Positions 1 to 36,888 of a DNA stretch of 64,000 nt are shown here, piece after piece. The DNA lies in NCBI RefSeq assembly GCF_000340215.1, contig NW_006921542.1:1144267-1208266 (forward strand), in the 5' to 3' direction. The position numbers and the translations under genes are program-made. The notes beneath the pieces were generated by a model. The model worked only from the letters and a program-made list of their open reading frames with translations. It made no database searches and had not been told where the DNA came from. Within the stretch, counting starts at the first letter, position 1, and the number at the start of each line of letters is the position of its first letter. The stretch comes from Pseudocercospora fijiensis CIRAD86. Taxonomy: Eukaryota; Ascomycota; Dothideomycetes; Mycosphaerellales; Mycosphaerellaceae.

Positions 1-1
1 G

Positions 2-11950: not shown

Positions 11951-12118
11951 TATAGCCGGCATATATAGCCGGTATATATCCGAAATGTGTTTCGAATTCC
12001 TAGGACCTAAATAGACTAGTTGCTATAGCAACCGACCCCGCTTATCTACGGACTATTTCTAATTCTCTATTCGCTCTTCCTCTCCTTCTTCCCTTTCCCT
12101 ATATTCTTAAAGATAAAT

Positions 12119-12903: not shown

Positions 12904-13002
12904 TTAGAAATTGTATTTAGTCGTTAGATTAACCTAGGAGGAGGCCTATTTTCGCATCCTTTTGCCGGCTATAGGTACCGGCTATATTTCTAATTTTATC
13001 TC

Positions 13003-13690: not shown

Positions 13691-14198
13691 TAGAGACGGT
13701 AGTAGGCCTTTTCCTACTAAATAACTAGCTTATTTAGTATAGCCTACCTAATATTTCTTATATTTACTAGCAACAGGCCTAGGTTACTTATAAGATTACT
13801 ATAGCTAGTAAAGGCATTACTAAAGAATATCTATACTATAGTAGGATACTATTATTACGCCGGCTATTTATTAAAAGGAGGCTTTCGCCTATTACTATAC
13901 CGGCTATATATACCGGCTATATTTCAAAGTCTGCCGTACCTGCCTTTTTTAGCTATACCTACCTTTTTTAGCCGTACCTACCTTCTTTCCTTACTCTAAC
14001 GTTACTATAATATAGGCTTGCGCGAAGCTTACTCTATTGCCTAGCGATACCGCGACACTACCTCTCTCGCTATATTTAACCTTCGTATCGATACCTATAC
14101 CTCTATAGTCTATATCTACTACCTCCGTAATACCCTCGCTCCGCGCGCGCCTTCGTATACCTTCGTAACGCACTTTTTTCCTTAATTCGACGACTTTT
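13691..14198. other. W2 segment upstream of H3-like gene 2
   Basis: Contains TAGCCGGCA-type repeats near 13677 and 13895-13920 and a CCTACCTTTTTTAG motif in tandem near 13935-13985. No protein motif is seen. It may hold the promoter of the second histone gene. Confidence 0.4.
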
Positions 14199-14744
14199 AT
14201 AATAGCGAGTCTACTTAACTAAGTTACGACGCCTAGCAAGAAAGGACCTACTACTTCTACGGGTCGCAATAAGACCGGAAATAATAGAACGAGTATAGTA
14301 TATTAACGTAAGAGGGCTACTACTACTGCCGCTAGCTCCGGTACTAGAAAGGGCGTCGCGAGCAAGGCTCCGCGTAAGACAACGGCGGGCAAGTCTCTAC
14401 GCAAGACGATAACTAGCGCTTCTACTACTAGTAGCAATCGTACGAAGCGTCGATAGCGCCTAGGAAGTAAGTCCTATTTATAGCCGGTAGCGTAGCCGGT
14501 AGCGTAGCTAGTAGCGTAGCCGGTATTCTTACTGTCTTTTTACTAATCCTTCTTTAGCCGTAGCCCTCCGTAAGATTCGGTAGTATTAGAAGAGTTCTAA
14601 GCTCCTAATCCGTAAAGCTCCTTTCTAACGACTTATTCGCGAAATTGCCTAGGATTATAGAACGGACCTTCGCTTCTAAGCCTCCGCGATAGGCGCCCTT
14701 TAAGAGGCTATAGAAGCCTATCTAGTTCGTATCTTCGAATATAT
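14199..14744 (+). pseudogene. Histone H3-like gene 2, exons 1 and 2 (in W2)
   Basis: Exon 1 (about 14199-14466; start inferred at an ATA, so uncertain) encodes a tail with SKAPRKTTAGKSLRKT, matching the H3 tail pattern KAPRKxxAxKxxRK, and ends RLG. A 91-bp intron (14467-14557) has GTAAGT, an ACTAAT branch-like site and TTTAG. Splicing joins GGA A to CC GTA to make GTVALRKIR, the exact H3 motif at the tail/fold border. Exon 2 (14558-14744) continues SSKLLIRKAPF, RLIREIA, DYRTDLRF, ASAIGAL and EAIEAYLVRIFE. TAG codons stand at the H3 Gln positions. The rest of the gene lies beyond the X1 insertion, at 21931-21996. The intron is filled by TAGCCGGTA repeats. Confidence 0.87.
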
Positions 14745-14772
14745 GTTTCTCTTCTACCTCTTTTTAGACTAT

Positions 14773-14968
14773 TGTAAGAAGGGTATATTAGTAGGTAGAT
14801 AGGGTAGTAGTAGGTACGAGTAGTATTCGATAAGGAGCTAGGAGGAGAGGGAGGAAGGTAGGCAAGTTAGCCTATTGCTAAGCGCTAAGCCCTACCTAAG
14901 GCACTAAGACCCTAGCTTTACTTAGCCTAGTTACATGCCAATCACGTATAGCCTCTTTGGCCCTAATA
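14773..14968 (-). repeat. X1 LTR (3' LTR in element sense, 196 bp)
   Basis: Plus-strand TGTAAGAAGG...CCCTAATA. It is flanked inside by CGCTTCCCTTCT (14971-14982), which is a polypurine tract when read on the minus strand. It matches 21709-21904 and 57993-58189. Confidence 0.93.
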
Positions 14969-16189
14969 TACGCTTCCCTTCTAAAGGCCGCGCCCTCGTA
15001 GCCGGTCTTTGTTCTAGTCTCAACCTCTATTGCTACTAACTTAGTAGGTCTAATAAGCCGCTTAGTCCGCGCTAAATTGAACGTACAACTACCGATTATA
15101 TAACTATATCAAACCTTACCTTCTAATATAATGTCTAACTCTAACTACGCTATCCTTGTATATAATAAAGTAATATATAACTATAAGAATTAAGGACTAT
15201 CGACTAATTACAATACGAGCGTACCTTCCCTACTATAATAGGTAGGTATACGGGATATTATAGCACTGCCCCCGTTCTAAGTAATATCGTACCGAGTTCT
15301 CTATATCTACTCTTAAAAGACCTAGAAATGTCCGCTCCCGAGGGTTGTTCTTATTGTTACGAGGGCTATTATTTACTGTCGTAGTTTCACTAGCCCTAAT
15401 TAGTTAGGTTTAGTAGCCTTCAATTGTTAATCTTATCTTATCTTTTAAAAAATACAGCTCGTCTAGTTTCTATAGGTAAAGGCTATTGTAAGTGTAGTAG
15501 TAGAGGTTCGCCTCGCTTAAAGGGTTAGATAGATCGAGGAGTAACCTATTGTCCGCAAGATCGACCCCGGCTAGCTTAGCTCTATAGTTTTTGCCCTTAG
15601 TTAGTCTATTAGTCGCTTAATCTTTTAGGCGGCTTAAAGTTTTGATTAAAGTTTTAATTAAAGGTGCCTTAGGCTCGTAGTATAGGTAAGGTTGTGTCTA
15701 TAGGCGCAGTAACAATAGCAAGTGATATTAATAATAGCGGCGCTAGTCGTCTTAGCGCTAACTTTACCTTGCTTTCGATTTCCTTCTTCGACTAATAATA
15801 TACTCCGTAATACCGTTACTAAAATAGCCGCGCCGGCCGTATCGCCCTTTAGTATAAGCGTAATACCGTCGTTACTATTATTATTACTAACACTATTCGC
15901 CTACGCGCGCGCGCCGCCTCTATCGACCGCCTAGGCCTTAGGGCCCCGATAGAACGTAGAATAAGAGGGGCGCTAAGAGAAGGGTCTTATAGGGTACGCT
16001 AGTAAAGAGGTAGATTCCTTAAAAGAGTAGGCGATTAGTTAATAGTTATAGCGCGTTTGTTAACGCTCGGTGCGTATCTACTATAGTAGTATAATCTTAT
16101 TATCCTTTATTGCTAACAATTGCTTGCTCCTAATTAGTTAGCTAATAGTATCCCGGGGGTAGCATTAATCCTAGGCCCTAATAGTAACA
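14969..16189 (-). other. X1 region between pol stop and 3' LTR
   Basis: About 1.2 kb of non-coding sequence in element sense, starting with a palindrome at 16144-16167 and ending in the polypurine tract. No conserved protein motif is seen on either strand. X2 has the equivalent segment at 58190-59437. Confidence 0.6.
16144..16167. repeat. Palindrome just after X1 pol stop
   Basis: AATAGTATCCC/GGGGGTAGCATTA, 23 bp past the pol stop in element sense. It is the same motif as the G1 palindromes although X and G1 are different gypsy lineages. Confidence 0.8.
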
Positions 16190-19100
16190 TTATAGCCTCT
16201 TAACCTTCTTCTTGTCCTTTATACTAGTCTAATACTCGTCTAATAACTTAGTTATATCCTTAAAAGAGTCTTTAGCCTCCTACGAGTCCTATTTAGGTAA
16301 ATAGCCTTGCTATCTTAGAAGGTACTCCTTCTTGCCTTGTCTAGTCCGATGCTTTAGTATACGCTCTATAGACTATAGTTCTTTACTATTAGCTAAGACT
16401 TCTTCTAACTTAGTAGGCGCTTCGTCGCCTTCGCGTAGGTAGTACGGCTTAAGGAGGGATATATAGAAGGTGTTATAGATAGTGTAATAAGGTAGAAGCT
16501 ATAACTAATAGGCCTATATACCCTTAGCCTCTCGAATGCGGAATAGGCTAATGTATCTTAGTGCGAGCTTAGGCCTTGTTTTGCTATTAGGTAATAGGTG
16601 TTTGCGGATACGGAGGTTCTTAGTACTTAGTATAACTATATCGCCTTGTTTGAAGGTTATTAGTATATAGCGCTTATCGTAGTAGGTCTTTTAGTACTCT
16701 TAAGCCCTTATTAGCTTCTTAGCTATCTTAGTATAGATTTCTCGCATCTTTTGAACCCTCTTAATAGCTGCTAGTGTCTCTAGTACTTAACGCGCTTCCC
16801 TTTCCTTACGCTCGGCCTCGAGCGATAGTAGGTCTTGTAGTATAGCAGCATTCTAGCCTATTATAGCTATATATAGTGAAACCTTAGTAGATAAGTGCAC
16901 GCTATTATTGTACACGAATTCCGTAGGCTATAGGAGATTAACCTAATCCTCGGGGTTTTTATTAATATAGCTGCGTAGGTACTGCTACAGGGTAGCATTC
17001 TGCCTCTCTATTTAACCGTTAGTCTATAAATAGAAGGCTATCGATAGCCGATGCTTTAGTTTTAGCTATAAGCAAATCTCGCTCTAATAGTAAGATATTA
17101 GTGTCGATCTACGATTAGATACGATCCCCTTAGGGGTTCCCTAATAGGTATAGAAGATGTTAGTCTATAGCGCCTCTACTATATTAATAGTAGTCTAATC
17201 CTTGCGCGCCGGGATATATCGAGCGCCTTTAGTAAATCGATCTACTATAACAAGGATAGCATTATATACATCCTTACTATCCCTACGCTTAGTAGGAGGA
17301 AGGCCTATAATAAAGTCTATTATTAGCTTAGCAAATAGCTTCTTTAGAACCGGGAGCGAAGACAACTCGCCGAACGGCAAGTGCTTCGGTGCTTTAACTC
17401 GCTAGTATACTATATAGGTCTATATATACTCCTTTATATACCGCTTACTATTTAGCTAGTAGTATATATGCAATAGTAACTCGTGCGACCTCTCTATACT
17501 ATAGTAACTAGCGAGCTCACTATTATAGTGCCTCTTTAAAAGCTCTTATCTAATCGATTGTTTAGCGGGGATATAGTATCTGCCCTTAAACTTTAAGTAA
17601 CCTTTATCGTCGATCGACTAACTATTACTCTTACTAGATCGAGTCGCCCGTCTACTTACAAGCCTATTAATACGCTCGATAGCAAAGGCGTCCCTCTACT
17701 AAGTACGTAATAGCTTATCTATAAACGATTAACTATCCCTATTTATAAGGTTATTTAATAGTACCCTCGCTATCGAACGAGGTACGTATTATATATATCT
17801 AATAGCACTAGCAGCCGGAACTACTACAACCTCTTCTATAGTGCTATCGCTATATAGGCTATTACTATAGATAGCAATGTCTTTAATCGAGTTATTATAG
17901 CTCGAGCGATCTACGTCCTTTCTAACGTGTACTAGAAGAACGACAACTCCGCTATAGTATTTATTGCCGCCGCGGGGTCTAGAGGTCCGCTTATCCTACG
18001 TTTACTTATTAATAATACGGGCTATAGCAATCTTATGCTATAGGGTTAGAAATAATGAATTGATATATTAGGTCTCGCTATCGTAATTAGGTCGCCTCGA
18101 TAGGCTATCGGTAGGGTTACTTACGCCTAGCCGGTATAATATATTAAAATCGAACCCGGCGAGGTAGACGGCCTATCTAGCCTGTCGACCTATAACCCTA
18201 GTAACCTTAGTAATACTACGGAGGTTGTTATAGTCTATATAGACCTGTATTGTATATTAAGCCCTATCGAGGTAGTGCCTCTAATACTTAAAGGCCTCGA
18301 CAATAGCTAGGAGCTCTTACTCGTAGGTCTCGTAGCGACGTTTAGTATTAATTATCTTCCTCGAGAAGAAGGCAATCGGGTGCTAGTAGGTGTTATTAGC
18401 CTACTATAATATAATAGCTAATATAGCGAACTGTAAAGCGTTAGTCTCAATTCGGATCTATTTGCTTAGTACGAAATAGTATAATAAGGGGACTTTAGTA
18501 AAGCGTTGCTTTAGACCGTTAAAAGCGGCTTGTGTCTTATTAGTCTATTTGAATTCCCTAGACGGGTTAGCCTTAGTTTTAGTAAGCTTAGTTAGAGGCA
18601 TTATATGCCGTAAATAGCCCTTAATAAAGCGACGATAGAAATTAGCGAAGCCGAGGAACGACTATAGCTCCTTAATTGACGTAGGAATAGGCTATTTAGT
18701 AATGGTTTTGATCCGATTAGGATTAGCCTTAACACCCTTAGTTAATATAAAGAAGCCGAGGAATAATACCTCTTTAGTAGCAAAGGTGCATTTAGAAGGT
18801 TTGTAATATAGTCTATAGGCTCGTAGGCGGTCGAGGACCTTACGTACTACGGCTTAGTATTCTGCAATATTAGGTAAATGTATATAAACTAGGATGTTAT
18901 CGAGGTAAACTATATAGAGATAGTCTAATAGGCCCGAAAGGGCCCGATTGATATAGGACTAGAATGTTATAGGGGCATTAGCTAGCCTAAATAGCATAAC
19001 TAAGTACTCGAAATAGCTATAGCGAGTATAGAAGGCTGTCTTCTATTCGTCGCCCTTACGAATACAGATACGATAGTACGCATCCTTAATATCTAGTATA

Positions 19101-20053
19101 GTATAGAAGTAGGCCTTAGAAAGGCGATCGAGGGTCTTATTAATAAGCGGAAGTAGATAGCGGTCTTTAATAGTAACAGCATTAAGTCTACGGTAATTAA
19201 CGTATAACCGTAGGCTACTATCCTTCTTTAGAACAAACAGGATTAGTGCACTAGTAGGGCTGTTACTATACCGTATCCGGCTATTAGCTAGGTTTTCTTC
19301 TAGGTACTTACGTAATATAGCAAGCTCGCGCTTACTAAGGTTGTAGAGTAGTCTAAAAGGAACCTCTTTGCCCTCTATAATATCAATCTTATAATCCGTC
19401 TCCTTAAATATAGGCAATGTCGATGCTAGGTGATGTTTAAACACATTAATATAGGTCTCTCGGATAGGCTCTAGTATACGAGTAAGCTAATTAGGGTCTA
19501 TACTATCCGGGGGCACAGGTTTATCGTTATTACTACCGAGTAGGTCGGCAGTCGGATTAGCTAAGGCAGGTATTAGGTTGCTAATAAACAGGACCCTAAT
19601 ATCGTTAGGGTACTCGCTAATATTAATGTGTTTAATATCCTCTTTCCTAGCGATTCTAAATCGCTACTTCTAGAGGCCTAGGTCTATAGCTATAGCGTAG
19701 TACTTAAGAATAGGGTTACTAATAACAATATCGGATAGGAGGCTGTCTATATCTACCGCGTAGGTAGTAAAGTTTAGTAGGCGCTTATTGCCGAGGTTAT
19801 CTCTTAGGGCTATATAGATATAGTAAGCTCTATAGGTTAAGTGCCGAGCGTTATTAAACCAAGCAAGGGTTAGTAGGTTAGTCCTAGGCAGTTGTCGAAG
19901 GTCTAATTGCTTAGCTAGGCGATAGCTAATAAGGGCACTAACTAAATTTCCTAGATCTAGTATAACCTTAGTCTTATAGTTAGTTCTATACGTGTCCGAT
20001 ACGAGACAGGTACGTATAATAGCTAGCACAATGTCGATAGTCTTACGCCGCAC
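16190..20053 (-). pseudogene. X1 pol: protease, RT, RNase H, integrase, chromodomain
   Basis: The protease (19670-20053) has KVILDLGNLVSALIS, where the expected D-S-G reads D-L-G (TCA to TTA). The RT (19043-19444 and on) shows IVEGKEVPF-like spacing, [26 protein letters not shown] and DIKDAYYRI. The active-site box near 18900-18920 reads YLDN, the second Asp lost by a TG to TA change. The integrase core begins near 17350 (FIIGLPPTKRR, then AILVIVDRFTKGARYIPARK). A chromodomain near 16250-16410 (SIERILKHRTRQGKKEYLLRW, GYLPKWDSWE) ends at TAA (16190-16192). Chromodomains target integration to marked chromatin. Stops and the two catalytic changes make it inactive. Confidence 0.9.
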
Positions 20054-20059
20054 AAGGCT

Positions 20060-21415
20060 AACAGTTAGTACGGCGCTTATTCTTTTTTCGAAGGTTAGCC
20101 TATAGGGATAGCGTTAGCCGCTAAGAGGTACTTTCGGTATTTAGCGGAAGCACGGTTAATTCGGGCCTAGTTCTTAGGTTTGTCGCATTAGCCTAGTAGA
20201 TAGCTAGTGCTATTACAATTGAAGCACTTTAATCCGGTTAGTAGACTGCCGTAGCTGTTATTATTATTAGCAGAGCGGTTAGCATTGTAGGGATACGAGC
20301 CCCTTCTACGACCCCTATCGCGGCCTCCTCTATATAGCCGCCGGCTACGGCCTCTTCTACGATCGTTACTGTTCCTATTATTAGCATTGTTGTCCTAGTA
20401 GGAACCTTAGTTTCCTCCGCGGCTACTACGGTTGCTACGGTTAGTACTAGCTAGTCGGATTCTTAATTCTAGTCGCTATTAGAGTTAAATAGCCCGCTCG
20501 GCCGTTTCCACTTCGACTATAAATTAAATGCGCGTTAGATTAGTCTATTCGAATATACGGCGGCGGTCTAATTTAAGGATAAGTTCCTACCTAAGTTTTA
20601 GGCGTATCTCGGAGATCTATATAGAATTAGTCTTAGGCGGAAGGTCGTCTTTAAGGGTTTTTAAGTAGGCCTCGAATAAACGAGCCGATTAATTAGTCTT
20701 TTATTTAGCTCGAAGATACAGGTCCTAAGTATATTGTTGCCTTAGTATAGGGTTTCTAAGGGTGTCTAGTATAATAGTTTTATAGGTTTGCTACTAAATA
20801 GCGGTTTGATTATCGAGGGAATCGAAATAGTTATCCTATATACGCTTTAGGTCGCTATTAATGTACTATATAGCGTATACGACTAAGGAATAATCGTCTA
20901 GTAGCGCTCTTAGTATATTACGCTAGTTAAGCTTATAGTTACGAATATAGTCGTTGTATTGCTTGCGACTAGAGCCGTTAAATATAGTACAGTCCTTAAG
21001 CTTAGCATCCTTCTTTTAGACTAGTAGTAAAGAAGGTTCTACTATTAGTTTAGTAGTAGTTGTTAGGGCTTCCTAAAGGCGACGGAGCTCGAGGAGATTA
21101 TCTCTTAGCTGTTGTTCTTAACGTAGGGTAGTAAGCCTGTTTTAAGTGGCTTCTTAAAGTCTCTCTAATAGTTAAGGGCTAAAGGCTAGTTAGCTATATC
21201 GTCGATTAACAATGTTGTTAAGAATATCGCTAACAGGTAATTCTAGATTATTACCTAGAATTACAGGTTCTTCTTTAGCAGGCCCTATAGTAGGCTCTTC
21301 GGTAGGAGGCACTTTAGTAGGTGCTTTAGTAGGCACTTTAGTAGGTACTTCGGTAGGCACTGTGCTACTAGTGTTGTCATTGCTAGCGCTGCTAGCGGCA
21401 GTATAGTTGTTGTTT
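20060..21415 (-). pseudogene. X1 gag
   Basis: On the minus strand the N-terminus is rich in Pro/Thr with a short repeat (VPTKVPTKAPTKVPP, around 21300-21350). A retrotransposon-Gag-like domain follows (DCTIFNGSSRKQYNDYIRNY near 20990, then ARLFEAYLKTLKDDLPPKT near 20650). A zinc knuckle lies at about 20182-20230 (CFNCNSTSYLLG then C), of the CX2CX4HX4C type with His changed to Tyr as CAC to TAC would give. The exact start is not resolved. Confidence 0.8.
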
Positions 21416-21708
21416 CGTAACGAGCCGGCTATTGTAATAAGGGGTAGTACTAATAATGTATTATAGGCCCCTATAGTACGGATATAGCGGAATTAGCGAG
21501 TATCGGTCTAATATGCTTAACTTAGTATAATAGGCCGTATAGAAGGCCTTGCTTAATAATTGGTACGGTTGTTCTTAGTAGAATAGTACGTATAGGTCCC
21601 GTCCTTCGGGCGTAATATAGTCAAATCGATAGTTTCTATAGCTATACCGCTAAAAGCTTAAAATAAGGACTATCTAGCTACTACTCTTAAAGGGTAGATC
21701 GAATACTG

Positions 21709-21904
21709 TATAAGAAGGGTATATTAGCAGGTAGATAGGGTAGTAGTAGGTACGAGTAGTATTCGATAAGGAGCTAGGAGGAGAGGGAGGAAGGTAGGCA
21801 AGTTAGCCTATTACTAAGCGCTAAGCCCTACCTAAGGCACTAAGACCCTAGCTTCACTTAGCCTAGTTACATACCAATTACGTATAGCCTCTTTAGCCCT
21901 AACA
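21709..21904 (-). repeat. X1 LTR (5' LTR in element sense, 196 bp)
   Basis: Plus-strand TATAAGAAGG...CCCTAACA, matching the other X LTRs. It is directly followed by the duplicated target ACTAT. Confidence 0.93.
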
Positions 21905-21930
21905 ACTATACTAATACTATTTTGGCGGTT

Positions 21931-21996
21931 AACCTTATAGCTATCTACGCGAAGCGTATAACGATTATAGACAAGGATTTTAAAGCACTCGATTAG
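21931..21996 (+). pseudogene. Histone H3-like gene 2, last exon (in W2)
   Basis: Encodes NLIAIYAKRITIIDKDFK, matching the end of the H3 fold (NLCAIHAKRVTIMPKDIQ). It ends at TAG (21994-21996), which may be a RIP product. It is split from exons 1-2 by X1. The second intron's 5' site could be AT/GTTTCT at 14745. Its 3' site is unclear: W2 reads TTTTGG where W1 reads TTTTAG, and neither gives a clean frame, so the junction stays unresolved. Confidence 0.75.
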
Positions 21997-23237
21997 ATTC
22001 TAAAAGGCTAGAATGTCTACATTCGAGATAGTGCTAGATAGGATAGATATACTAGTAGGAAGGATGTTCGTAGTATCGTCTACAAGCTTTTCTATATACG
22101 AAATAAGCCGCTATTATACGGCGCTATATACCGCGCTCTAAATACTCTCTAAGTATATATATATAGTATAGTCTGCTTTATTAGCCGTACGGAATAGAAG
22201 TCTTCGAAAATCCCGTTAGTACTAAAGAGTCAAAAGGCCGGCTACGCTGCCGGCTACGCTGCCGGCTACGCTACTAGCTACGCTACTAGGTTTTTTAAAG
22301 AACTAAAAGAAGATAGATATTCCGGTTGATTTGTATTAGTTTAGATTTTTCTAAAAAGAAAACAGGGAAAAATAAGGAAGGTTAAAGAGCCTAATGCTTA
22401 TAGTTATAGGCATTATACCTGTTTTCTAGACTATATTATATACCTGCCTTCGTAACTCTACCTAATACTCCCTCTAAATATCCTTATACTCTACCTACTA
22501 GAAATTCAACTAGGTACCTAGACCTGTAGCTACCTCTATATCTTTTACTATCTTCTATAGGTTAAAGGACTCCTCTATAGTAGCCTCTACCTCCTTATAC
22601 AATACGAAGTTACTGCCTACCCTATCCTTAATATCTCCTAAATAACTAAGAGTTCTAAGGAACGAACTAGTATTCGGCCTTAGTATAGCGAGTAACTAGT
22701 AGAACGTTCTATAGAGCTGCCTTATAGCTCTTTTATATACTATACCGATACCGAGGGAGGAGCTATCCTAGTACTTAATATTAGAGAATAGTTTAGTTAG
22801 AAAGTGTTAGAACTTCTTAAGGAGGGCTTCTAGGGAAATCGATAAGTTCTGCCTAGATCTAGATAATACTATTCTACCGAGCAGTTAGGGAATTAAATAG
22901 CGAGCGAAAGGATGAAATTCATACCTAATAAGTATAGTTTCTAAACTGAACTATAATAGCTTATATATATATATACTTTTGATTAGTTAGTGCCCTTAAC
23001 TAATTGTCTATAGATTTAGGGTTATATAAGTACCTTCCTACAACTAAAAAATGCCGGCTACGCTGCCGGCTACACTCTCGTATCTTATAAAGGGCTTGCT
23101 TCGAGTTACGTAGACATTCTTACACTTCTTAGAAACCGATAAATTCTATAGTTCGAACTAGCTAATCCTATAGTTGCTTAGCAAACTAACCTAAACTAAA
23201 CTAGATCTTCGGCTTAGCAAACTAAACCAAACCAACC
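21997..23237 (-). other. W2 terminal segment with unrecognised frame and TAGCCGGCA arrays
   Basis: Contains an array at 22231-22290 (repeated GCCGGCTACGCT) and another at 23053-23083. On the minus strand a helical, Glu/Lys-rich frame (EVEATIEEAFNL...VKDIEAAIGLG) lies around 22450-22950. No domain is recognised. The last 100 bp carry repeated TTTGG/CCAAA motifs, as subterminal transposase-binding regions often do. Confidence 0.4.
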
Positions 23238-23256
23238 CGAACTACTACGGGGTCTA
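23238..23256 (+). repeat. W2 right terminal inverted repeat
   Basis: CGAACTACTACGGGGTCTA, identical to 19 of the 20 bp at both ends of W1. The right flank AGAAAACG (23257-23264) would be one half of an 8-bp target duplication; the other half is lost. Confidence 0.85.
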
Positions 23257-26029: not shown

Positions 26030-26260
26030 TTACGTAAGAAGGGGAAGTAGCCGTCGAATACTTATTAGATAATGCTACTAATATTAATATAGTATCTTAA
26101 GAATTCGTTCTACGATACTAGCCTTAGCGGATTGTTAATACCGTACTACCTAGTACCGATAGTTTCTAGGGCGACCGAGGATACTACTACGGAGCGTATT
26201 ATCTACGCTTATAGATCGCCGACTCTATAGGCTAAGAACGCATTACTACCGGAGTATTCT
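26030..26260 (+). pseudogene. Y protease fragment, interrupted by W1
   Basis: Near 26070 the frame gives LLDNATNINIVS, matching the aspartic protease active-site loop of fungal gypsy elements (LLDxGAxxNxIS type), with the Gly lost. It runs to the W1 insertion at 26260. Confidence 0.75.
26253..26260. repeat. 8-bp target duplication of W1 (left)
   Basis: AGTATTCT directly before the W1 terminal repeat; the identical 8 bp follow it at 36881-36888. Eight-bp duplications are diagnostic of hAT transposons. Confidence 0.95.
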
Positions 26261-26442
26261 TAGACCCCGTAGTAGTTCGGGTTGGTTTGGTTTGGTTTGC
26301 TAAGCCGAAGATCTAGTTTAGTTTAGGTTGGTTTACTAAGCAACTATAAGAGTAGCTAGTTCGAACTATAGAATTTATCGGTTTCTAAGAAGTGTAAGAA
26401 TGTCTACGTAACTCGAAGCAAGCCCTTTATAAGATACGAGAG

Positions 26443-26466
26443 TGTAGCCGGCAGCGTAGCCGGCAT
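26443..26466. repeat. TAGCCGGCA array near the W1 left end
   Basis: Two direct GTAGCCGGCA units. One of many such arrays in W (others in W1 near 27231-27284, 27851-27902, 28688-28712, 29754-29776, 30765-30785, 32164-32187, 33175-33223, 34596-34620, 35158-35195, 35836-35890, 36482-36512, 36695-36718). Confidence 0.8.
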
Positions 26467-26599
26467 TTTTCAGTTGTAGGAAGGTACTTATATAACCCTA
26501 AATCTATAGACAATTAGCTAAGGGTACTAACTAATTAAAAGCATACATATATATAAGCTATTATAGTTCAGTTTAGAAACTGCACTTATTAGGTATAAA

Positions 26600-27130
26600 T
26601 TTTATCCTTTCGCTCGCTATTCAATTCCCTAACTGCTCGGTAGAATGTTATTATCTAGATCTAGGTAGAACTTATCGATTTCCCTAGAAGTCCTCCTCCT
26701 TAAGAAGTTCTAACACTTTCCTACCGAACTATTCGATAATATTAAGTACTAGGATAGCTCCTCCCTTAGTATCGGTATAGTATATAAAAGAGCTATAAGG
26801 CAGCTCTATAGAACGTTCTACTAGTTACTCGCTATACTAAGGCCGAATGCTAGTTCGTTCCTTAGAACTCTTAGTTATTTAGGAGATATAAAGGGTAGGG
26901 CAGGTAGTAACTTCGTATTATATAAGGAGGTAGAGGCTACTATAGAAGAGGCCTTTAACCTATAGAAGATAGTAAAAGATATAGAGGCAGCTATAGGTCT
27001 AGGTACCTAGTTGAATTTCTAGTAGGTAGAGTATAAGGATATTTAGAGGGAGTATTAGGTAGAGTTGCGAAGGCAGGTTTATAATATACTCTAGAAAATA
27101 GGGATAGTGCCTATAACTATAACTATTAGG
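26600..27130 (+). pseudogene. Unrecognised helical frame near the W1 left end
   Basis: Plus-strand frame with GIVYKRAIRQLYRTFY, SFLRTLSYLGDIKGRAGSN near 26860-26910 and EVEATIEEAFNLWKIVKDIE near 26930-26990. Rich in Leu/Glu/Lys and probably helical. The same sequence lies inverted in W2 (22450-22950). No domain recognised. Its strand is opposite to the transposase. Confidence 0.4.
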
Positions 27131-27523
27131 CTCTTTAACCTTCCTTATTTTTCCCTGTTTTCTTTTTATAAAAATCCAAACTAATACAAATCAACCGGAA
27201 TGTCTATCTTCTTTTAGTTCTTTAAAAAACCTAGTAGCGTAGCTAGCAGCGTAGCCGGTAGCGTAGCCGGCAGCGTAGCCGGCCTTTTTACTCCTTAGTA
27301 CTAACGGGATTTTAGGAGACTTCTATTCCGTACGGCTAATAAAGCATACTATACTATATATATATACTTAGAGAGTATTTAGAGCGCGGTATGCAGCGCC
27401 GTATAATAGCGGCTTATTTCGTATATAGAAAAGCTTGTAGATAATACTACGAATATCCTTCCTACTAGAATATCTGTCCTACCTAGCATCGTCTCGAATA
27501 TAGACATTCTAGCCTTTTAGAAT

Positions 27524-28184
27524 CTAATCGAGTGCTTTAAAATCCTTGTCTATAATCGTTATACGCTTCGCGTAGATAGCTATAAGGTTGACCGCTAAAA
27601 TAGTATTAGTATAGTCCGAAAAGAGGTAGAAGAGAAACATATATTCGAAGATACGAACTAGGTAGGCTTCTGTAGCCTCTTAAAGGGCGCCTATCGCGGA
27701 GGCTTAGAAGCGAAGGTCCGTTCTATAATCCTAGGCAATTTCGCGAATAAGTCGTTAAAAAGGAGCTTTACGGATTAGGAGCTTAGAACTCTTCTAATGC
27801 TGCCGAATCTAACGGAGGGCTACGGCTAAAGAACGATTAGTAAAAAGATAGTAAGAATGCCGGCTACGCTACCGGCTACGCTACCGGCTACGCTACCGGC
27901 TATAAATAGGACTTACTTCCTAGGCGCTATCGACGCTTCGTACGATTGCTACTAGTAGTAGAAGCGCTAGTTATCGTCTTACGTAGAGCCTTACCCGCCG
28001 TTGTCTTACGCGGAGCCTTACTCGCGACGCCCTTTCTAGTACCGGAGCTAGCGGTAGTAGTAGCAGCCCTCTTACGTTAATATACTATACTCGTTCTACT
28101 ATTTCCGGTCTTATTACGACCCGTAGAAGTACTAGGTCCTTTCTTGCTAGGCGTCGTAACTTAGTTAAGTAGACTCGCTATTAT
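27524..28184 (-). pseudogene. Histone H3-like gene 2, uninterrupted copy (in W1)
   Basis: Same gene as 14199-14744 plus 21931-21996, but without the retrotransposon. Exon 1 is 27917-28184 (268 bp, ending GTACGAAGC... RLG), intron 1 is 27826-27916 (91 bp, full of TAGCCGGTA repeats), exon 2 is 27639-27825 (187 bp) and exon 3 is 27524-27589 (66 bp). All lengths equal those in W2. Key motifs are KAPRK in the tail, GTVALRKIR across intron 1, APFWRLIREIAWDY, ASAIGAL, EAIEAYLVRIFE and YAKRITI. Gln codons are TAG. H3 packages DNA in nucleosomes. Intron 2 borders are unresolved. The two copies agree closely, so both descend from one cargo-bearing element. Confidence 0.87.
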
Positions 28185-28699
28185 AAAAGTCGTCGAATTA
28201 AGGAAAAAAGTGCGTTACGAAGGTATACGAAGGCGCGCGCGGAGCGAGGGTATTACGGAGGTAGTAGATATAGAGCGTAGAGGTATAGGTATCGATACGA
28301 AGGTTGAATATAGCGGTAGTGTCGCGGTATCGCTAGGTAATAGAGTAAGCTTCGCGCAAGCCTATATTATAGTAACGGTAGAGTAAGGAAAGAAGGCAGG
28401 TACGGCTAAAAAAGGTAGGTACGGCTAAAAAAGGCAGGTACGGCAGACTTTAAAATATAGCCGGCATATATAGCCGGTATAGTAATAGGCGAAAGCCTCC
28501 TTTTAATAAATAGCCGGCGTAATAATAGTATCCTACTATAGTATAGATATTCTTTAGTAATGCCTTTACTAGCTATAGTAATCTTATAAGTAACCTAGGC
28601 CTATTGCTAGTAAATATAAGAAATATTAGGTAGGCTATACTAAACAAGCTAGTTATTTAGTAGGAAAAGGCCTACTACCGTCTCTATATGCCGGCTACG

Positions 28700-29745
28700 A
28701 GTGCCGGCTATCGCTCTAAATTCAACTCCGCCCTATCTCGGAGGCTAAGGTACCGAGCGGAAACCCTATAGCTTATATTCACTCGGTTATCGCGGAGCGC
28801 TTATAGGTAAGGTATTAGAAAAGAGTATAAAAAGTACGAGAAGAGTATCCTAGGATATAGGTCGTAAGTGAATAAGAGTAGTACGCCTAGTTATTTATAT
28901 AGTACGTTACTCTATACGACGAAGAGCCTATATTATCTTATGCTTCGCTTATAAGACCTCGACTCTACTAGTATACTATCGATCTCCTCCTCGGTCGCTA
29001 ATACGCTATCTTAATTCTTCTTCGAGTTACCGGACTTAGTACGTATCTATAGCTATATAATAGCGCTACGTATTATAGAGAATCAACTCCGCCGTATCTC
29101 GAAGGCTAAGGTACCGAGCGGAAATCCTATAGCTTATATTCACTCGGTTATCGCGGAGCGATTATAGGTAAGGTATTAGAAAAGAGTATAAAAAGTACGA
29201 GGAGAGCATCCTAGGATATAGGTCGTAAGTGAATAAGAGTAGCACGCCTAGTTATTTATATAGTACGTTACTCTATACGACTAAGAGCCTATATTATCTT
29301 ATGCTTCGCTTATAAGACCTCGACTCTACTAGTATACTATCGATCTCTTCCTCGGTCGCTAATACGCTATCTTAATTCTTCTTCGAGTTACCGGACTTAG
29401 TGCGCATCTATAGCTATATAATAACGCTACGTATTATAGAGAATTTCTCGTTAAAGTTTCTCTCTCGTAGGCTTACTATCTGCCTCGTAGTATAGAGGAT
29501 TAAAGTACTAATACTAAAGAATCTCCTTATAGTTAGGATGCTAGGGCTCCTTAGGACCTTTGTGTTTTAGGTCTAAATAGAGACGTATTATAAACGTTCT
29601 ATCGCCCTTTCGCTTACTATCCGCTAGGTCGCGATATACGAAGAAACTAATCTAAATGTAGCTCGTCTCTATAATAGCCGGGTAAATATAGAGCGCTAGG
29701 TTTCTACTTCGTACCTTAGATTTAGGGACGGCGCGGAGATAAAAT
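28700..29745 (-). pseudogene. Unrecognised W1 frame downstream of H3-like gene 1, with internal duplication
   Basis: Counterpart of 13003-13690 in W2. The DLAGSKRKGDR motif is near 29600-29650. The part at 28723-29444 is a tandem duplication of 361 bp that W2 lacks. No known domain. Confidence 0.35.
28723..29444. repeat. 361-bp tandem duplication
   Basis: Units 28723-29083 and 29084-29444, each starting CAACTCCGCC and ending TATAGAGAAT, differ by few bases. W2 has one unit, so the duplication arose in W1 or was lost in W2. Confidence 0.85.
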
Positions 29746-29834
29746 CAGAAATATAGCCGGCACCTATAGCCGGCAAAAGGATACGAAAATAGGCCTCCTC
29801 CTAGGTTAATCTAACGACTAAATACAATTTCTAA

Positions 29835-30619
29835 CTAATCCGCTATAAACCGACGCCGAATTTTAGCTAGAAGCTGTATATCTTTATTTTAAAGAGTAAC
29901 CCGCTTTATATAGATAGCAAGGAGGTTTAAAAGCTTAAGCTCGGTTACGAGAAATGCCTCCGTAGCTTCCTAAAGAGTACTAATCGCCTTAGCCGTAAAT
30001 CGTATACTAGACCGAAAATCTAATATAATTTCTCGGACGAGTCGCTAGAAGGGAGTCTTAGGGATTAAAAGCTCGGTCCCTCTTTTATTTTAGAAAAGCC
30101 GGATCTAGCGAAGGGCAATAGTACCTAGTTTAAAGCGCCGCTTCTTTATCGTCGAGTCCTGCCTTATTCCCTTTCTTTTAATAGAAAGATAACTTTTCTT
30201 CGCGATAGTCTTCGTCCGCCTACTCTTTTTAGCCTTCTCCTATCTATCTATAGCCTTCTTATTTTTCGGTACTATTTTCCGAAGAACCCCCTTCCTTCGT
30301 ATATACTACGGAGAGCCTTACTCTTCCGATATGTCGTTCTCGCTACGGTCTCCCTATACTTAGCTTACTTTACCCTTACCCTTTAGTCTCTAAAGATATT
30401 TATCTACGCGTTTAGGCGACGAGGGTATATCGGTAGGACCTAGAAAATTAATAAGTATATAATCGTAAGGAGACATTAATGCTTCTTGCCTTCTAGAACA
30501 AATAGTCTTCTATTAAACCGCCTTAGTAGGTTATCGTTAGATTCGAATAAAGGATAGTAGCTTAAGGAAGGGGAGGTAGCCGGCTTAGGAAGGCCCGAAG
30601 AGCCGAATCCTTAAGGTAT
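29835..30619 (-). pseudogene. Histone H3-like gene 1, long basic tail (in W1)
   Basis: Exactly the length of the W2 copy (785 bp). The start codon here is ATA (30617-30619) where W2 keeps ATG, a TG to TA change. The fold motifs are GTITLR, GTELLIPKTPF, RLVREIILDFRSSIRF and EAIEAFLVTELK. It begins about 170 bp after the transposase stop, on the same strand. Two residues are inserted before GTELL compared with ordinary H3, loop 1 has H3 length, and the C-terminus reads RRRFIAD before a TAG. This fits a diverged H3 variant; a centromeric role is only a guess. Confidence 0.85.
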
Positions 30620-30787
30620 GTTTGTCTTTAAGAATATAGGGAAAGGGAAGAAGGAGAGGAAGAGCGAATAGAGAATTAGAAATAGTCCGTAGGTAAGCGG
30701 GGTCGGTTGCTATAGTAACTAGTCTGTTTAGGTCCTAGGAATTCGAAACACATTTCGGATATATACCGGCTATATACGCCGGCTATA

Positions 30788-33600
30788 TTACCTTATACGT
30801 AAACGCTTCGTCTCCTTAAAGCTACTCTAAGCCTATATACGTTTCCGCTTCTCGACCCGGTATCGCCTTCTACCTCTGCCCTTCTCCTCTTTATTATCGC
30901 TAATTAGGGTTTCGTTTAGACTAAATTTCGTATTCTCTTCGCGCTCCTAGGTTTCTTCGATCTTAAGGTTTTCTAATTCCTCGATTAACTCCTTTAGTAT
31001 AATCTTTAGTAACCTACCTTAGCGACTCTAGTAGAGGAGATAGTATCGGAATACTATAATAGATTCGAAGGTAGTAGGCGAGTATATTCGATTAAAGCGG
31101 CCCTAGTAACGAGCGATACTAAAAGACCTCTTATAGCCTATACCTACGCTCGGGATAGCGAGGACGTCCCGAGCGACCGACGCTATCGTTAGAAACTTAG
31201 GCTCTAACCGCTACTATATAGCGAGAATATCGTCTCCGAATTCGTCTAGAAGACCGGTAAGATCTAGAGATTATTAGCCCTCTTTCCGATCCTACGGGTT
31301 TATACTTACTCGCGCGCCGATAGAGATCGAACTCTTCTTTATTTACTTTAGTAGTTGCTTCCTCTTCTGCCTCTACTTCCTACCTACGAAACAGGTATAA
31401 TATCGGAGCCTTCTAAACCTTCTTTTTCTTTATAGGAGCTATATTTAGACTAGTTTCTTTCCGACGCTCGTAGAATATCTTTTCTAGAATAGTCTAGTAA
31501 TACTTCGGCTATACCTCGTCCGCCTTCTATTCCGGCCTCTACTAGTATATATCCTTTTCTACCGGGTTAAGTAAGTACGTAACGCTATAGATATCCCCGA
31601 ACGACTTAAAGGTAGTACTGTAATATTTATACAACTTAGTATAGGAGGTGTCTATAGCTTTCGTTATAGCTACTTTCTAGGGAACGCTCTTCTTAGCTAG
31701 CTTAGCTACGGTTTCCTCGAGCTCGTTAAAGAGCTAGTTATAGTACGTAAAGACAAGGTAGATCGTCGGTCCTCGGATTCTTCTAATCGTAGTAATAACC
31801 TTCGCGTAATGCTTACTAATATCGACGAGATACTCTGCTTAGCGCTATTCGGCGGCGGTAAGGCCGAGCTACTTAATACCCTCGGAACTCTAATAGATCT
31901 CGAGAGCGGTACGTAAAGTATATCCCCTTATAACTATATAGAAAGTCGAATCGAACCGGGTCTTAACGTCTTAGATAAAACAGAGTAGGCGCTAAGGAGG
32001 CCGCTTTTACTATCGCTTATTCTATACGATATTCTAGGCATCGGTTTTAGGGCGCTCGATTAGGTTCTTTTAAATAGCCTTAAATCGGTTATATCTCTAT
32101 AAGCTCGAGTTCGTATATATTACTAGACGACGAAGCTAGAGAAAAAGAGTTAGAACTATACTAGGTTGCCGGCTATAGGTGCCGGCTACGGACAAAAGTT
32201 ATACCTTATATAAAACGAGAGCGAGGCTCTCTACCTTATCCTATCTTATTGCTATAACGAGTTTCTCGACTTTCGACTTTGCTTTATCCTTATCTAGGAT
32301 CTTCTATTAGTCGTCGTTTAATAGTACAATTTTAAGCGTCTTAAAGAGGGCTCAGATCGCGATTTAAACTATATAAGCGAGGTAGGGAAACTTCTATAGG
32401 GATATAACTAGCAACGACGTCGGCTCCGATTTAATAGGGCTAGGGCTATTCCTAGGCTCCTCTTTATCGTTATCGTCGTACGTATTATCGTACGTATCCG
32501 GAATCGTAGCGAGCTTAATATTCGGAAGATTAAGCTAGATTATAGACCTTATAATCTCCTCTACGTACTCGACCCTATCGATACAATTAGTGATTTTAAA
32601 GATATATACGAGTAAATTGTATATATAACGCCTTATATAATGTTCGATTATTACTAGCGTTATCCGTAGTAATCGAGATTAGTTTCGTTATTACGCTAAC
32701 CCTATCTATTACCGTATAGATAAGCTTCGCTATATCCTTACTAGTATAGGAACCTAGAATTTTAGGGAATCCGATTATAAGTTCCTAGAGTTTCTAATCC
32801 GAATTAATAAAGTATAGTATAATCGAGAGGAAGGAGGCTCTTATAGTCCGGCTTAACTAGCTATCGATAGTAATAGCTACTCGGCGAGTATTACGGAGGA
32901 TCTCCCGAATATCGTCTAACGTAGCCTCTTTGTTCTTTTCGAATATAATACGCTAGGTTATCGCGCCGAGAAATAGGGGAGGGTAGTTTATAAGATATAG
33001 GTATATCTTCTATATAGACTCCCTTTCGTAGAAGTCTTCCGGAAGACCGTTTATAGCTAGCATTTCGTTTACTAGTTACTTAAAGTCTTCGGGGGAGAAA
33101 TCGGTAGCCTTTAATCCTAGAGCTTCCTTAAGCGTAGCCTATAATAATTAGCTAGATCTCTACGGTTAATTAAAGTAGCCGGAATCTATAGTCGGTAGCT
33201 ATAGCCGGTAGCTATAGCCGGCATTTTAGAAGACGTACCTCTTTCTAGAACGCTATATCTATATTAACTCTCCTCTCTCTTTAAGATTCCCGATACTGTT
33301 TAGAATAGAGATAGTTCGTAGGCGATAAGTTCCTATCCCCTAGTTTCGGGTATTTTAAGATTAAACCGTAGAAGTTATAGACAATTACTAGTTAACCTTT
33401 AAGTCGAGAAGTCGTATAATAGTGCAATACCCCCTCTATAAAGAACTTCTAGAATGTATCCGTTCGCTCCTTACTCCCCTATCGTATCGAGTACTTCCGG
33501 AGTTTATACTCCTTCGAACGTAAGTATAAAGGGAACTATATCTTATAGACCTATTAATTAAACTGCTCTATATACTCGGGTTTCTAAAGATACGCCTAGC
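30788..33600 (-). pseudogene. hAT-superfamily transposase of W1, degenerate
   Basis: Cut-and-paste transposase of the RNase H fold. On the minus strand: an upstream exon (KPEYIEQFN near 33585, TDTFWKFFIEG near 33450), an intron at 33160-33238 (GTACGT...CCGTAG), then FSPEDFKWLVNEM near 33100, AITIDSW with the first catalytic Asp near 32860, ITTDNASNN with the second catalytic Asp near 32655, an intron at 32136-32204 (GTATAA...TCTCTAG), TRFDSTFY near 31950, LTAAEW near 31840 and LNPVEKDIYW near 31570. The dimerisation region follows (ASVARDVLAIPSV near 31170, FSIARYWGRFNRIYS). It ends at TAA (30788-30790) after a basic tail. Both introns contain TAGCCGGCA arrays. No classical BED finger is seen. 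TAG/TAA codons and a frame change near 31300 inactivate it. Confidence 0.88.
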
Positions 33601-34540
33601 TAGCCTTTTCGAAGATTTCCGGGTTAATACTCGATATTCTTATATCTCCGAACAACCTTCTACTTAGACTCTATAAAGGTAAGGACTAGGTAGTAGTACT
33701 CTATAATAAATTCCTACTACTAGGATTCGGAGAGGATAAATCTAGCCCTAATCGTTGTCTAGGACTCGATAGGCTCGAAGGTAAGTATACGGCCTCCTCT
33801 CGACGTTATCGTAATCTCGCTCGTATACTAGACTGTTTCGACTATCGTCTCGTTATTACCCTTCCTAGTATAGCGCCTAGTATATATACAATATCGGTCG
33901 GTATATTTTAAGGTTTCGTACGGTAAGGTAAGGACTTAGGAGTAGTAGATATATACTAGTAGCTATAGGGAAACACCCTTTCTTTTATAGCATCGTATCG
34001 TTAGGAATAGCTAGGTAGTAAATAGCTAGCTACCTTTTTTTCGTTTCCTAGCTACCTAACTACTAGATTTTTTTTTCCTAGCTACCCTAGCTAGCCTAAC
34101 TACTAGAATTTTCTTCCTAGCTACCCTAACTACCTAAATTTTGCCTTCTATACGGCGGCTCTCTCCTACTAACGGAACCGAGCTACTATACCTAACGAAT
34201 CTAAGCTCGTTTTTAGTCTTAATCTATCCTCTTTCGGTATAAGATACTCGATAAGCAAATGCTTAGGCCGAGTCTAACTACGAAACCTAAGACTAACTAA
34301 TAGCTCTATTAACTAATCCTAATCCTCGAACTCCTTCCGCTTCTTAGTAAAGACCTTAAAGAGCGCTCGAGCTTCGTCGGGTACCTATAGAGTAGTCGAG
34401 ATAAAGCCGTATCGCTAAAATAGGTAATCCTTCGGAGGCTTATATAGAGATTTAGAGAATTCTAACGCTAACCTATCCTACTAGGCGCTTAGATTCCGGA
34501 TATAAGCCCTCTTTGAGTCTTTGCCTTAGTAAAGATTTTA
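33601..34540 (-). other. W1 sequence upstream of transposase, unrecognised frames
   Basis: Minus-strand frames read EFIIEYYYLVLTFIESKWKVV near 33690 and, separately, VPDEARALFKVFTKKRKEFED near 34350 and KHLLIEYLIPKEDRLRLKTS near 34230. They look protein-like but match no family known to me and may belong to a gene continuing into the duplicated region upstream. Near 34020-34140 a low-complexity run of CCTAGCTACC repeats interrupts. Confidence 0.35.
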
Positions 34541-35885
34541 TATAGTAGTAGCACTCTACCCTCGAGAAACGCTTTCTATTTAACTGTTAGTATCTACCGG
34601 CTACGAACGCCGGCTATATATACCGAGTATAGAATAAATACCTATACCCCTTCCTCCTTTAGTAACACTTCTACCGTCCCTAGATACCTAGCCGCGATCG
34701 CATTAATCGTAAGCTACTTTGCCTTTACAGACGTAAAGGCTTCGCTCTAATACTAATAAAGAAACTTCTACTTTATATCGAGGATATAAAGACGACTAGT
34801 CTCGATTCTAATCCTTACTAGCTTTTCGTAGTAGCTTTAACTATAATTTTCTAGATTAATAGGACTTATACCTTAGCCCTTTACTAGTATCTCGTCTCTT
34901 TAACTATACTCGATCTACTCCTAGCGCTTATCGTCTATAGCGTTAGGCCCTAAGACTATACCTATTACTAGATCGACGTAGGGTATCTCCTCGCTTTTTT
35001 TAGTTCCTTTATTCTTAGTATTAAGCTCTATCGCGGTATCCTAAACTCTAGCATTATTGTTCTCGGCTATCTAAATATCTCCGTTACTATCGGTCGTATC
35101 GATAGAGGTAGAGGCTATAGGTCTAAATGCTATTAGTTAACGTCTTAAAGAGAAATATACCGGCTATAGCTACCGGCTACGGCTACTAGCTACGGCCGCT
35201 AGCTTAAAGATTTTATATAGTAGTAGCACTCTGCCCTCGAGAAACGCTTTCTATTTAACTGTTAGTATCTACCGGCTACGAACGCCGGCTATATATACCG
35301 AGTATAGAATAATTACCTATACCCCTTCCTCCTTTAGTAACACTTCTACCGTCCCTAGATACCTAGCCGCGATCGCATTAATCGCAAGCTACTTTGCCTT
35401 TATAGACGTAAAGGCTTCGCTCTAATACTAATAAAGAAACTTCTACTTTATATCGAGGATATAAAGACGACTAGTCTCGATTCTAATCCTTACTAGCTTT
35501 TCGTAGTAGCTTTAACTATAATTTTCTAGATTAATAGGACTTATACCTTAGCCCTTTACTAGTATCTCGTCTCTTTAACTATACTCGATCTACTCCTAGC
35601 GCTTATCGTCTATAGCGTTAGGCCCTAAGACTATACCTATTACTAGATCGACGTATAGTATCTCCTCGCTTTTTTCAGTTCCTTTATTCGTAGTATTAAG
35701 CTCTATCGCGGCATCCTAAACTCTAGTATTGTTGTTCTCGGCTATCTAAACATCTCCGTTACTATCGGTCGTATCGATAGAGGTAGCGGCTATAGGTCTA
35801 AATGCTATTAGTTAACGTATTAAAGAAAAATATACCGGCTATAGCTGCCGGTTACGGCTACCGGCTATAGCTGCTAGCTATAGCC
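34531..35885. repeat. 675-bp direct duplication in W1
   Basis: Unit 1 starts at 34531 and unit 2 at 35206 (AAAGATTTTATATAG). Both include a 58-bp intron-like segment (34584-34641 and 35259-35316) with a consensus TACTAAC branch site next to AG, filled by TAGCCGGC repeats. On the minus strand both encode the same frame (LGPNAIDDKR, INLENYSW, YEKLVRIRIETSRLYILDIK), function unknown. Confidence 0.85.
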
Positions 35886-36240
35886 GCTAGCTAGATTAAC
35901 TTACGCTACTAGAACTTTACGCTCGAAAACTAGCCGTAATTCTTTCCTCCTCTTAGCCTTCTCTTAGATTATCTTCTTATTCTAACCTTTACTTTTTTCT
36001 ATAAGCGCTAGCTATCGATAGAATGCCTTATTCCGCGCCTTTCTTCTCTTATCCTTAGCTCTTTTATCCTTATCTATCTTGTCCTTTCTCTCGCGGTCTT
36101 ATACGGAATTCTTCTTCGTAGAGTACTCCTCTTTAGTCTTACGCTTTTTAGTTAGACGCTTAGGTAAAACAAACTCGCGGTCTTTAGTTCTATCTTCTGT
36201 TTAGCGCGCGGCGCGCTTCTCTCTTACTATTATAAGGGAA
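35886..36240 (-). pseudogene. Lys/Arg-rich frame, unknown
   Basis: Minus-strand frame with DREFVLPKRLTKKRKTKEEYS near 36170 and KDKIDKDKRAKDKRRKARNK near 36060. Very basic, so possibly nuclear or nucleic-acid binding. It may be the first exon of the gene in the duplicated region. The call rests on composition only. Confidence 0.35.
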
Positions 36241-36369
36241 AGGGGCGGGGGCGTAGCGTATAGTAGTTATTATCGGTATAGGTATAGAGGAAGAAGTTAA
36301 AAGTATAAGAATATCGCGAAGCCCTAATTGTTACCGCCTACGTAACGTTATATAGGTAAGCTTTCGTAA

Positions 36370-36745
36370 CTACGGCAACTACGCCCCGGCAATAGCAACT
36401 ACGCCCTAGTAACGGTAACTACGCCCTAGCAACGGCAACTACGCCCTAGCAACGGTAATAAAGCGTAGTAAATACAGCCTAGTAACTATTATAGCCGGCA
36501 ATCGTAGCCGGCAGTCGAATAAGAGTGTCCTTGTAGCAAAACTACGCCCTAGTAACGGCAACTACGCCCTAGTAACGGCAACTACGCCCTAGCAACGGCA
36601 ACTACGCCCTAGCAACGGCAACTACGCCCTAGCAACGGCAACTACGCCCTAGCAACGGCAAAAGAGCGTAGTAAATGTAACAGAGTTACTATTATAGCCG
36701 GCAATCGTAGCCGGCAGTCGAATAAGAGTATCCTTATAGTAAAAC
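36370..36745. repeat. 20-bp tandem repeat clusters in W1
   Basis: Unit AACTACGCCCTAGCAACGGC in about four copies at 36370-36465 and six at 36539-36660. Each cluster is followed by a copied block (TATAGCCGGCAATCGTAGCC, 36482 and 36690) and GAATAAGAGT. So a higher-order repeat of about 200 bp is present near the W1 right end. Confidence 0.85.
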
Positions 36746-36847
36746 TAATATAGTCTCTAGTTCAAACTAGGAATCTATATAGTTCGAAAAAACTAAACCG
36801 GAACTAGGGAGCTAGTTCGCCGCTAAGAAACTAAACTATATACGTTT

Positions 36848-36880
36848 AGTAGTTCGGAAACCGAACTACTACGGGGTCTA
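36848..36880. repeat. W1 right terminal inverted repeat with nested palindrome
   Basis: The 20-bp terminal repeat at 36861-36880 is preceded by its own inverted partial copy: AGTAGTTCGG, AAA, then CCGAACTACT. The left end lacks this and instead has a TTTGG-rich stretch. Confidence 0.85.
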
Positions 36881-36888
36881 AGTATTCT
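36881..36888. repeat. 8-bp target duplication of W1 (right)
   Basis: AGTATTCT, identical to 26253-26260. Confidence 0.95.

Follow-up and report, generated by a model that had tools for sequence, protein, structure and literature searches.

Why would a DNA transposon carry histone genes, and did they serve it? The question is raised by a 10.62-kb element, W1, at positions 26261-36880 of a 64,000-nucleotide stretch of the Pseudocercospora fijiensis genome (the window; C11:1144267-1208266 of an assembly of 73.94 Mb in 30 contigs). A sequence-only reading had described W1 as a complete hAT transposon that has 20-bp terminal inverted repeats (TIRs) without a mismatch, an 8-bp target site duplication (TSD), and two distinct histone H3-like genes on the transposase strand. 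Borders and Pfam matches bear out this description: both flanks carry the same 8 bp (Table 1), the short perfect TIRs and the 8-bp TSD are those expected of a hAT transposon, and the two genes, here called H3a and H3b, match the Pfam Histone model. Our answer, to which we give about even credence as a whole, is that W1 is a dead H3-carrying hAT element mutated by repeat-induced point mutation (RIP), and that its H3 genes were captured from the host, H3b with introns, and likely helped the element.

The sequence-only reading also knew of no described hAT element with such content, and in this it was mistaken. W1 is a copy of the H3-carrying hAT family that Dhillon et al. (2019, Mob DNA 10:37; PMC6710886) reported from P. 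fijiensis and five related Mycosphaerellaceae, as judged by length, TIR and TSD size, H3 genes, an insertion in one of them, and RIP; the family itself has been in print since 2019, and the finding as noted is not new. According to the available portions of that paper, the elements are 9.5-9.9 kb long with a 20-bp TIR, an 8-bp TSD, and one or two H3-like genes each; the 784 H3-like copies are all inactivated by RIP of CA to TA, the second H3 copy has a 16-aa insertion, the host H3 lies on scaffold 6, and the cargo is read as a transduplicated retrocopy of the host H3. The family analysed here has the same TIR and TSD sizes, a similar length (9.57-10.0 kb), two H3-like genes, a 48-nt (16-aa) insertion, RIP, a host H3 on contig 6, and a comparable number of histone matches (772 candidates). 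This agreement in layout, ends, TSD, copy number, and RIP supports our reading. The accounts differ in that we read the insertion as an intron, recognise a second H3b intron, and separate three subfamilies (A, B, and C). The available text of the paper reports no direct or inverted repeats and no identifiable C-terminal hAT block, whereas we find GCCGGC arrays and a weak block; the assemblies comprise 30 contigs here and 56 scaffolds there. We found no H3b introns, subfamilies, GCCGGC arrays, or selection tests on the element H3s in the accessible parts of PMC6710886 or in the literature searched.

A hAT element of Pyrenophora tritici-repentis likewise has a transposase and an H3-like gene between its ends, with 10 long and 16 short copies given in the sections available (Manning et al. 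2013; PMC3538342). It has no nucleotide similarity to the P. fijiensis elements and is taken as an independent event (PMC6710886, in part). The Pack-MULEs and other transduplication elements of plants are a broader parallel, with host gene material between DNA transposon ends. Pack-MULEs hold mostly gene fragments in non-autonomous elements; the W1 family, in contrast, has near-complete H3-type genes beside a transposase. Both papers mention such plant elements.

The exact TIR 20-mer occurs 393 times in the genome (199 forward, 194 reverse; reversed control, 0). Adjacent TIR pairs mostly span 9.57-10.00 kb (8 such pairs among about 100 listed places), and W1 is longer than usual because it contains tandem duplications of 675 and 361 bp. 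Four copies (L039-L042) were selected by paired ends alone, without regard to histone content. All four align with W1 in the same order, mostly at 95-97%, and have both H3 genes; the sequence-only reading had asked whether copies with the same ends carry the same genes, and these do. Copies picked via H3a define subfamily B (L043, L044, L048), whose aligned segments stand at about 74-86% to W1, and subfamily C (L045, L046), for which the segment values are about 81-96%. Eight further stretches picked via H3b (L052-L059) extend the subfamily groups. Subfamilies A, B, and C have related ends, the same gene order, and both H3 genes in each. The 8-bp TSD is perfect in L040, L042, L043, L046, L050, and L051 and imperfect in L039, L041, and L048; the right ends of L045 (searched with up to 4 mismatches) and L047 were not found.

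W1 is heavily mutated, with CA+TG at 0.16 of expectation. Across the window, CA and TG stand at 0.21 and 0.22 of expectation, a depletion characteristic of RIP; none is seen at the host H3 locus on C6 (CA/TG ratio 1.31). Histone matches number 772 first-look candidates genome-wide, of which 150 were scored and 622 were not. Stops interrupt 148 of the 150, exclusively TAG or TAA in 147 and additionally TGA in one, and TAG and TAA are derivable by RIP from CAG, CAA, and TGG. The two stop-free matches read as host genes, L009 as H3 and L034 as a CenH3-like exon.

H3a has a long basic tail in a frame that stays open, with stops read through, upstream to about 30380; this tail is longer than that of H3b, and no alignment was obtained for it. 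The best PDB matches of H3a are H3.3C/H3 chains (2e-27), and the gene runs across the position of host intron 2 without an intron. H3b likely carries two introns, judging from its sequence. Putative intron 1 starts with GTAAGT, ends mostly with ACTAAT...TTTAG, and measures 69-114 nt in 17 copies (its donor was not found in L057). Taking it out yields LG-T-VALR, which is conserved H3 sequence, and a host H3 intron of the same phase lies one codon earlier. Putative intron 2 is 48 nt long in 16 of 16 copies of the main parse and also in L045 and L046; its GTATGT donor is intact in L039 and elsewhere altered at both RIP-susceptible places, and its removal leaves FE-S-VNL, against FE-D-TNL in the host H3. 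In 17 of the 18 copies measured, exon 2 spans 183 nt, and in L056 it spans 190 nt (L058, cut to 183, is outside the measured set, and L024 does not reach exon 2). Without both putative introns, H3b matches H3.3 at 1e-40 (PDB chains). Sixteen extra residues at the site of intron 2 would presumably fall within helix 2 of H3, which is why we read the 48-nt stretch as an intron; the published 16-aa insertion of the second H3 gene reads as the same intron. The published retrocopy origin may hold for H3a and is doubtful for H3b because of these intron-like stretches, one of them within one codon of the host H3 intron.

Two types of selection test were applied, both restricted to RIP-proof sites, with P values that are uncorrected and come from non-independent pairs. 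The first type uses fixed differences between subfamilies; for H3b, the 3' parts of L039, L044, and L046, which are frame-shifted, were masked. Its extended form adds transitions outside CA/TG context to transversions. The H3b fold has 18 synonymous and 24 other differences between A and B (10.1 synonymous expected; P=0.005), 15 and 24 between B and C (P=0.02), and 10 and 14 between A and C (P=0.06). Corresponding values for the middle of the transposase are 14/17 (6.9 expected; P=0.004) for A-B, 15/20 (P=0.005) for B-C, and 2/3 (P=0.44) for A-C, and for a C-terminal transposase segment there was no signal in the reading frame used (P=0.38, 0.82, 0.47). For H3a, the extended test gives P=0.058 (A-B), 0.65 (A-C), and 0.005 (B-C) over the whole gene, 10/12 (5.9 synonymous expected; P=0.045), 4/7 (P=0.29), and 7/9 (P=0.12) in the fold, and P=0.31 (A-B) and 0.012 (B-C) in the tail. 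The second type counts purine/pyrimidine-variable sites at codon positions 1, 2, and 3, which number 2, 1, and 8 in H3b exon 3 (P=0.02; 13 copies, with L039, L044, and L056 dropped and the C copies and L058 outside), 11, 3, and 11 in the transposase middle (P=0.08), 4, 1, and 0 in the C-terminal transposase motif, and 10, 8, 8 and 11, 12, 14 in two spacers. Fixed differences suggest purifying selection on H3a and H3b of about the strength seen in the transposase, and codon-position variation does not confirm it. Divergence windows had at first suggested strong constraint, as 20-40% of spacer sites differ; the spacers are perhaps partly non-homologous, and the contrast was dropped as a gauge of selection.

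The sequence-only reading had left the two genes to be placed between H3 and CenH3, and by fold identity and loop 1 length both classify as H3-type. The folds of H3a and H3b in W1 are 59% and 66% identical to the host H3, 39% and 41% identical to the host CenH3-like exon, and 54% identical to each other, and loop 1 has H3 length in both. That exon (L034; G000:C5:606604-606795) is stop-free, has a longer loop 1, and was identified from its own sequence rather than via a named model; it is probably the host CenH3 gene. In subfamily A, the H3b tail aligns to the H3 tail (ARKG..KAPRK..KALRK); the second block is missing in subfamily C, and the repeat number varies in subfamily B. A loss of lysine 9 from the element H3 tails was considered and is unsupported for H3b, where the ARK, KAPRK, and LRK blocks align (subfamily A). 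The histidine of host AIHAKR is a tyrosine in both genes. In a tree, H3a and H3b fall on opposite sides of a branch with support of 100/99, and their grouping apart from the host H3 (94/86) is below the star threshold with only two host sequences, which is compatible with either one capture or two. That H3a and H3b are derivatives of CenH3, possibly centromeric, is very unlikely: the two genes encode divergent H3s whose N-terminal tails are long, a common trait of CenH3s, whereas the identities and loop 1 favour H3 and H3b retains an H3-like tail. It is more improbable still that the genes are separate later insertions into a hAT element, one of the events that the sequence-only reading had named as fatal to it. 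No support for such insertions was found; H3-like genes stand only at fixed places in the copies examined, and these are the same across the three subfamilies and in all four copies chosen by TIR pairs.

A much stronger rival, to which we give slightly less than even credence, is passive transduplication, in which a retrocopy of the host H3 was caught between hAT ends, multiplied without function, and destroyed by RIP. The published analysis takes this position in the portions available (PMC6710886), all scored element H3 copies carry stops, and H3a, having no intron at the host junction, fits a processed retrocopy. Several of our own results weigh against a helpful role for the genes and in part favour this rival. 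No intact element copy was seen among the 150 scored of the 772 candidates, and H3b is frame-shifted in L056. With transversions only, H3a differences are 8 synonymous to 18 not for A-B (P=0.105), 3/12 for A-C (P=0.57), and 5/9 for B-C (P=0.094), and the A-C comparison is significant for neither gene (H3a tail, extended: P=0.88, ratio about 1.7). Position-wise variation in H3b exon 2 looks unconstrained (12, 8, 12 in 18 copies, L056 dropped; P=0.61), and the H3a fold has too few variable sites for a pattern (1, 0, 2 in 18 thinned or 37 copies). Against passive transduplication stand the intron-like stretches of H3b, the persistence of both genes in A, B, and C despite spacer turnover, and those RIP-proof tests that show a shortfall of amino-acid changes about as large as that in the transposase.

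On the reading that we prefer, W1 is a dead, RIP-mutated member of the P. fijiensis H3-carrying hAT family that moved by cut and paste through its hAT transposase, as the 8-bp duplications suggest. The layout shows that both H3 genes were inside the element before subfamilies A, B, and C split. They are two lineages: H3a, intronless over the stretch examined, and H3b, which likely has two introns. Their likeliest origin is capture of the host H3 followed by divergence, with genomic DNA, not a processed transcript, as the likely source of H3b because exon 2 is constant at 183 nt, intron 1 varies from 69 to 114 nt, removal restores H3 sequence, and a host intron lies nearby. Their likeliest role would be to supply H3-like proteins that pair with host H4, enter nucleosomes, and keep the element expressed or mobile. 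More tentatively, on a view that we hold to be less likely than not, the H3 pair may have been working parts of the transposon lineage that selection retained while at least three subfamilies diverged. H3b, with its introns and H3-like tail, and H3a, intronless and with an unrelated basic tail, could then have taken the place of host H3 on the element or interfered with heterochromatin. Either would have kept the element expressed even though its host silences repeats and mutates them, and the Pyrenophora element could be a second instance of this strategy.

Table 1. Features of W1 and its borders (positions in the window).
Feature	Position	Strand	Basis or remark
TSD AGTATTCT, left	26253-26260	.	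equals right flank
TIR, left, 20 bp	26261-26280	.	inverted, identical 20-mer at other end
GCCGG/CCGGC arrays, 16 clusters of at least 2, throughout element	26447-36720 (approximate outer limits)	.	counts vs expectation
H3b exon 3	27520-27594	minus	sequence reading; 3' end approximate because stops could be mutated glutamines
H3b putative intron 2, 48 nt	27595-27642	minus	GTATGT donor in L039, ACTAAT..TTTTAG on 3' side
H3b exon 2, 183 nt, first part of fold	27643-27825	minus	Pfam Histone 1e-17 (match at 27644-27835)
H3b putative intron 1, 91 nt, filled by GCCGGC array	27826-27916	minus	GTAAGT..ACTAAT..TTTAG
H3b exon 1, basic tail resembling H3 tail	27917-28176	minus	sequence reading; 5' end approximate
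Tandem duplication, unit 361 bp	28722-29444	.	present in 16/25, absent from 9/25 subfamily A loci
H3a histone fold, without introns	29856-30230	minus	Pfam Histone E=1e-21, stop-tolerant reading
C-terminal hAT dimerisation block (..IASVARDVLAIPSVGIGYKRSFSIAR..)	31112-31228	minus	sub-threshold Dimer_Tnp_hAT
Transposase frame containing TTDNASNN	32596-32784	minus	open-frame reading
Tandem duplication, unit 675 bp	34530-35879	.	single-copy in L039-L042 and L047, the five subfamily A copies inspected over their full length
20-bp repeat AACTACGCCCTAGCAACGGC, two arrays	36357-36681	.	sequence reading
TIR, right, 20 bp	36861-36880	.	inverted, identical 20-mer at other end
TSD AGTATTCT, right	36881-36888	.	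equals left flank

The hAT motifs that the sequence-only reading had listed for the transposase hold in part. TTDNASNN is present, DSW reads DS-stop in W1, as expected from RIP on TGG, and the C-terminal dimerisation block is present below threshold only (Dimer_Tnp_hAT, 14.6 bits, E=0.029, cut-off 21.4; 12.9 bits in L043). No Pfam model exceeded its cut-off in the transposase region of L043, L045, or W1 (minus strand), and below-cut-off matches such as those to SelB-wing_3 and tRNA-synt_2e were taken as chance. DUF659, published for the H3-carrying hAT family, is absent from the Pfam scans of stop-tolerant frames. A genome-wide search with PF05699 gave 47 hAT dimerisation-domain matches, five of them stop-free (e.g., C2:4666571, open frame of 805 aa, and C11:245965, 525 aa), and other hAT elements in the genome may be less mutated. 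Along W1, most of the signal of a codon-pattern scan comes from the stretches of the transposase and the H3 genes, with nothing clear at 34.3-36.3 kb. In the equivalents of 34.5-36.9 kb in one B and one C copy, stop-tolerant Pfam scans found nothing above cut-off and only weak, chance-like matches such as IML1_N_fung.

W1 contains GCCGG/CCGGC 64 times, where 13.6 are expected, and L040, L042, L043, and L046 contain it 59, 65, 49, and 45 times (10-13 expected); full-length elements have 11-16 clusters, distributed over their length, at four to five times expectation, whereas 37 kb from elsewhere in the window have 44 occurrences (51 expected). The paired form is found 670 times genome-wide at any location (control, 0). 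Our guess is that these arrays are transposase binding sites.

The sequence-only reading had counted same-ended copies without histone sequence as evidence against it. Taken literally, two 373-bp elements, L050 and L051, are such copies, having the family's ends, perfect 8-bp duplications, and no histone, but they look like ordinary non-autonomous derivatives. They share only 84 bp and about 61 bp with the ends of W1, and L050 contains a GCCGGC pair. Their CA/TG stands at 0.44-0.45 of expectation, against 0.16-0.22 in long copies, perhaps because their size comes close to the length limit for RIP, which the available text puts at about 400 bp (PMC6710886). A 383-bp element with the family ends and a perfect 8-bp duplication is nested in the subfamily B element L044; it too is a short non-autonomous element in which CA/TG is less depleted than in long copies. 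The window also holds a second, reversed copy (11096-14772 and 21905-23256; 95-97% to W1) that covers W1 positions 1-5382 with both H3 genes (H3b at 14560-14739) and lacks the right part. It is interrupted by a 7132-bp insertion (14773-21904) that has TG..CA ends and 192-bp direct terminal repeats (96.9% alike) and is flanked by a duplication of 5 bp, ACTAT; the insertion looks like a long terminal repeat retrotransposon.

The present data make the view of a histone-encoding transposon testable and do not settle it. If H3b kept its introns and selection maintained both H3 genes, the picture would change from a housekeeping gene that was captured and then inactivated by RIP to a transposon that encodes histones, and such an element would offer a way to study how mobile DNA might influence the chromatin of its host.

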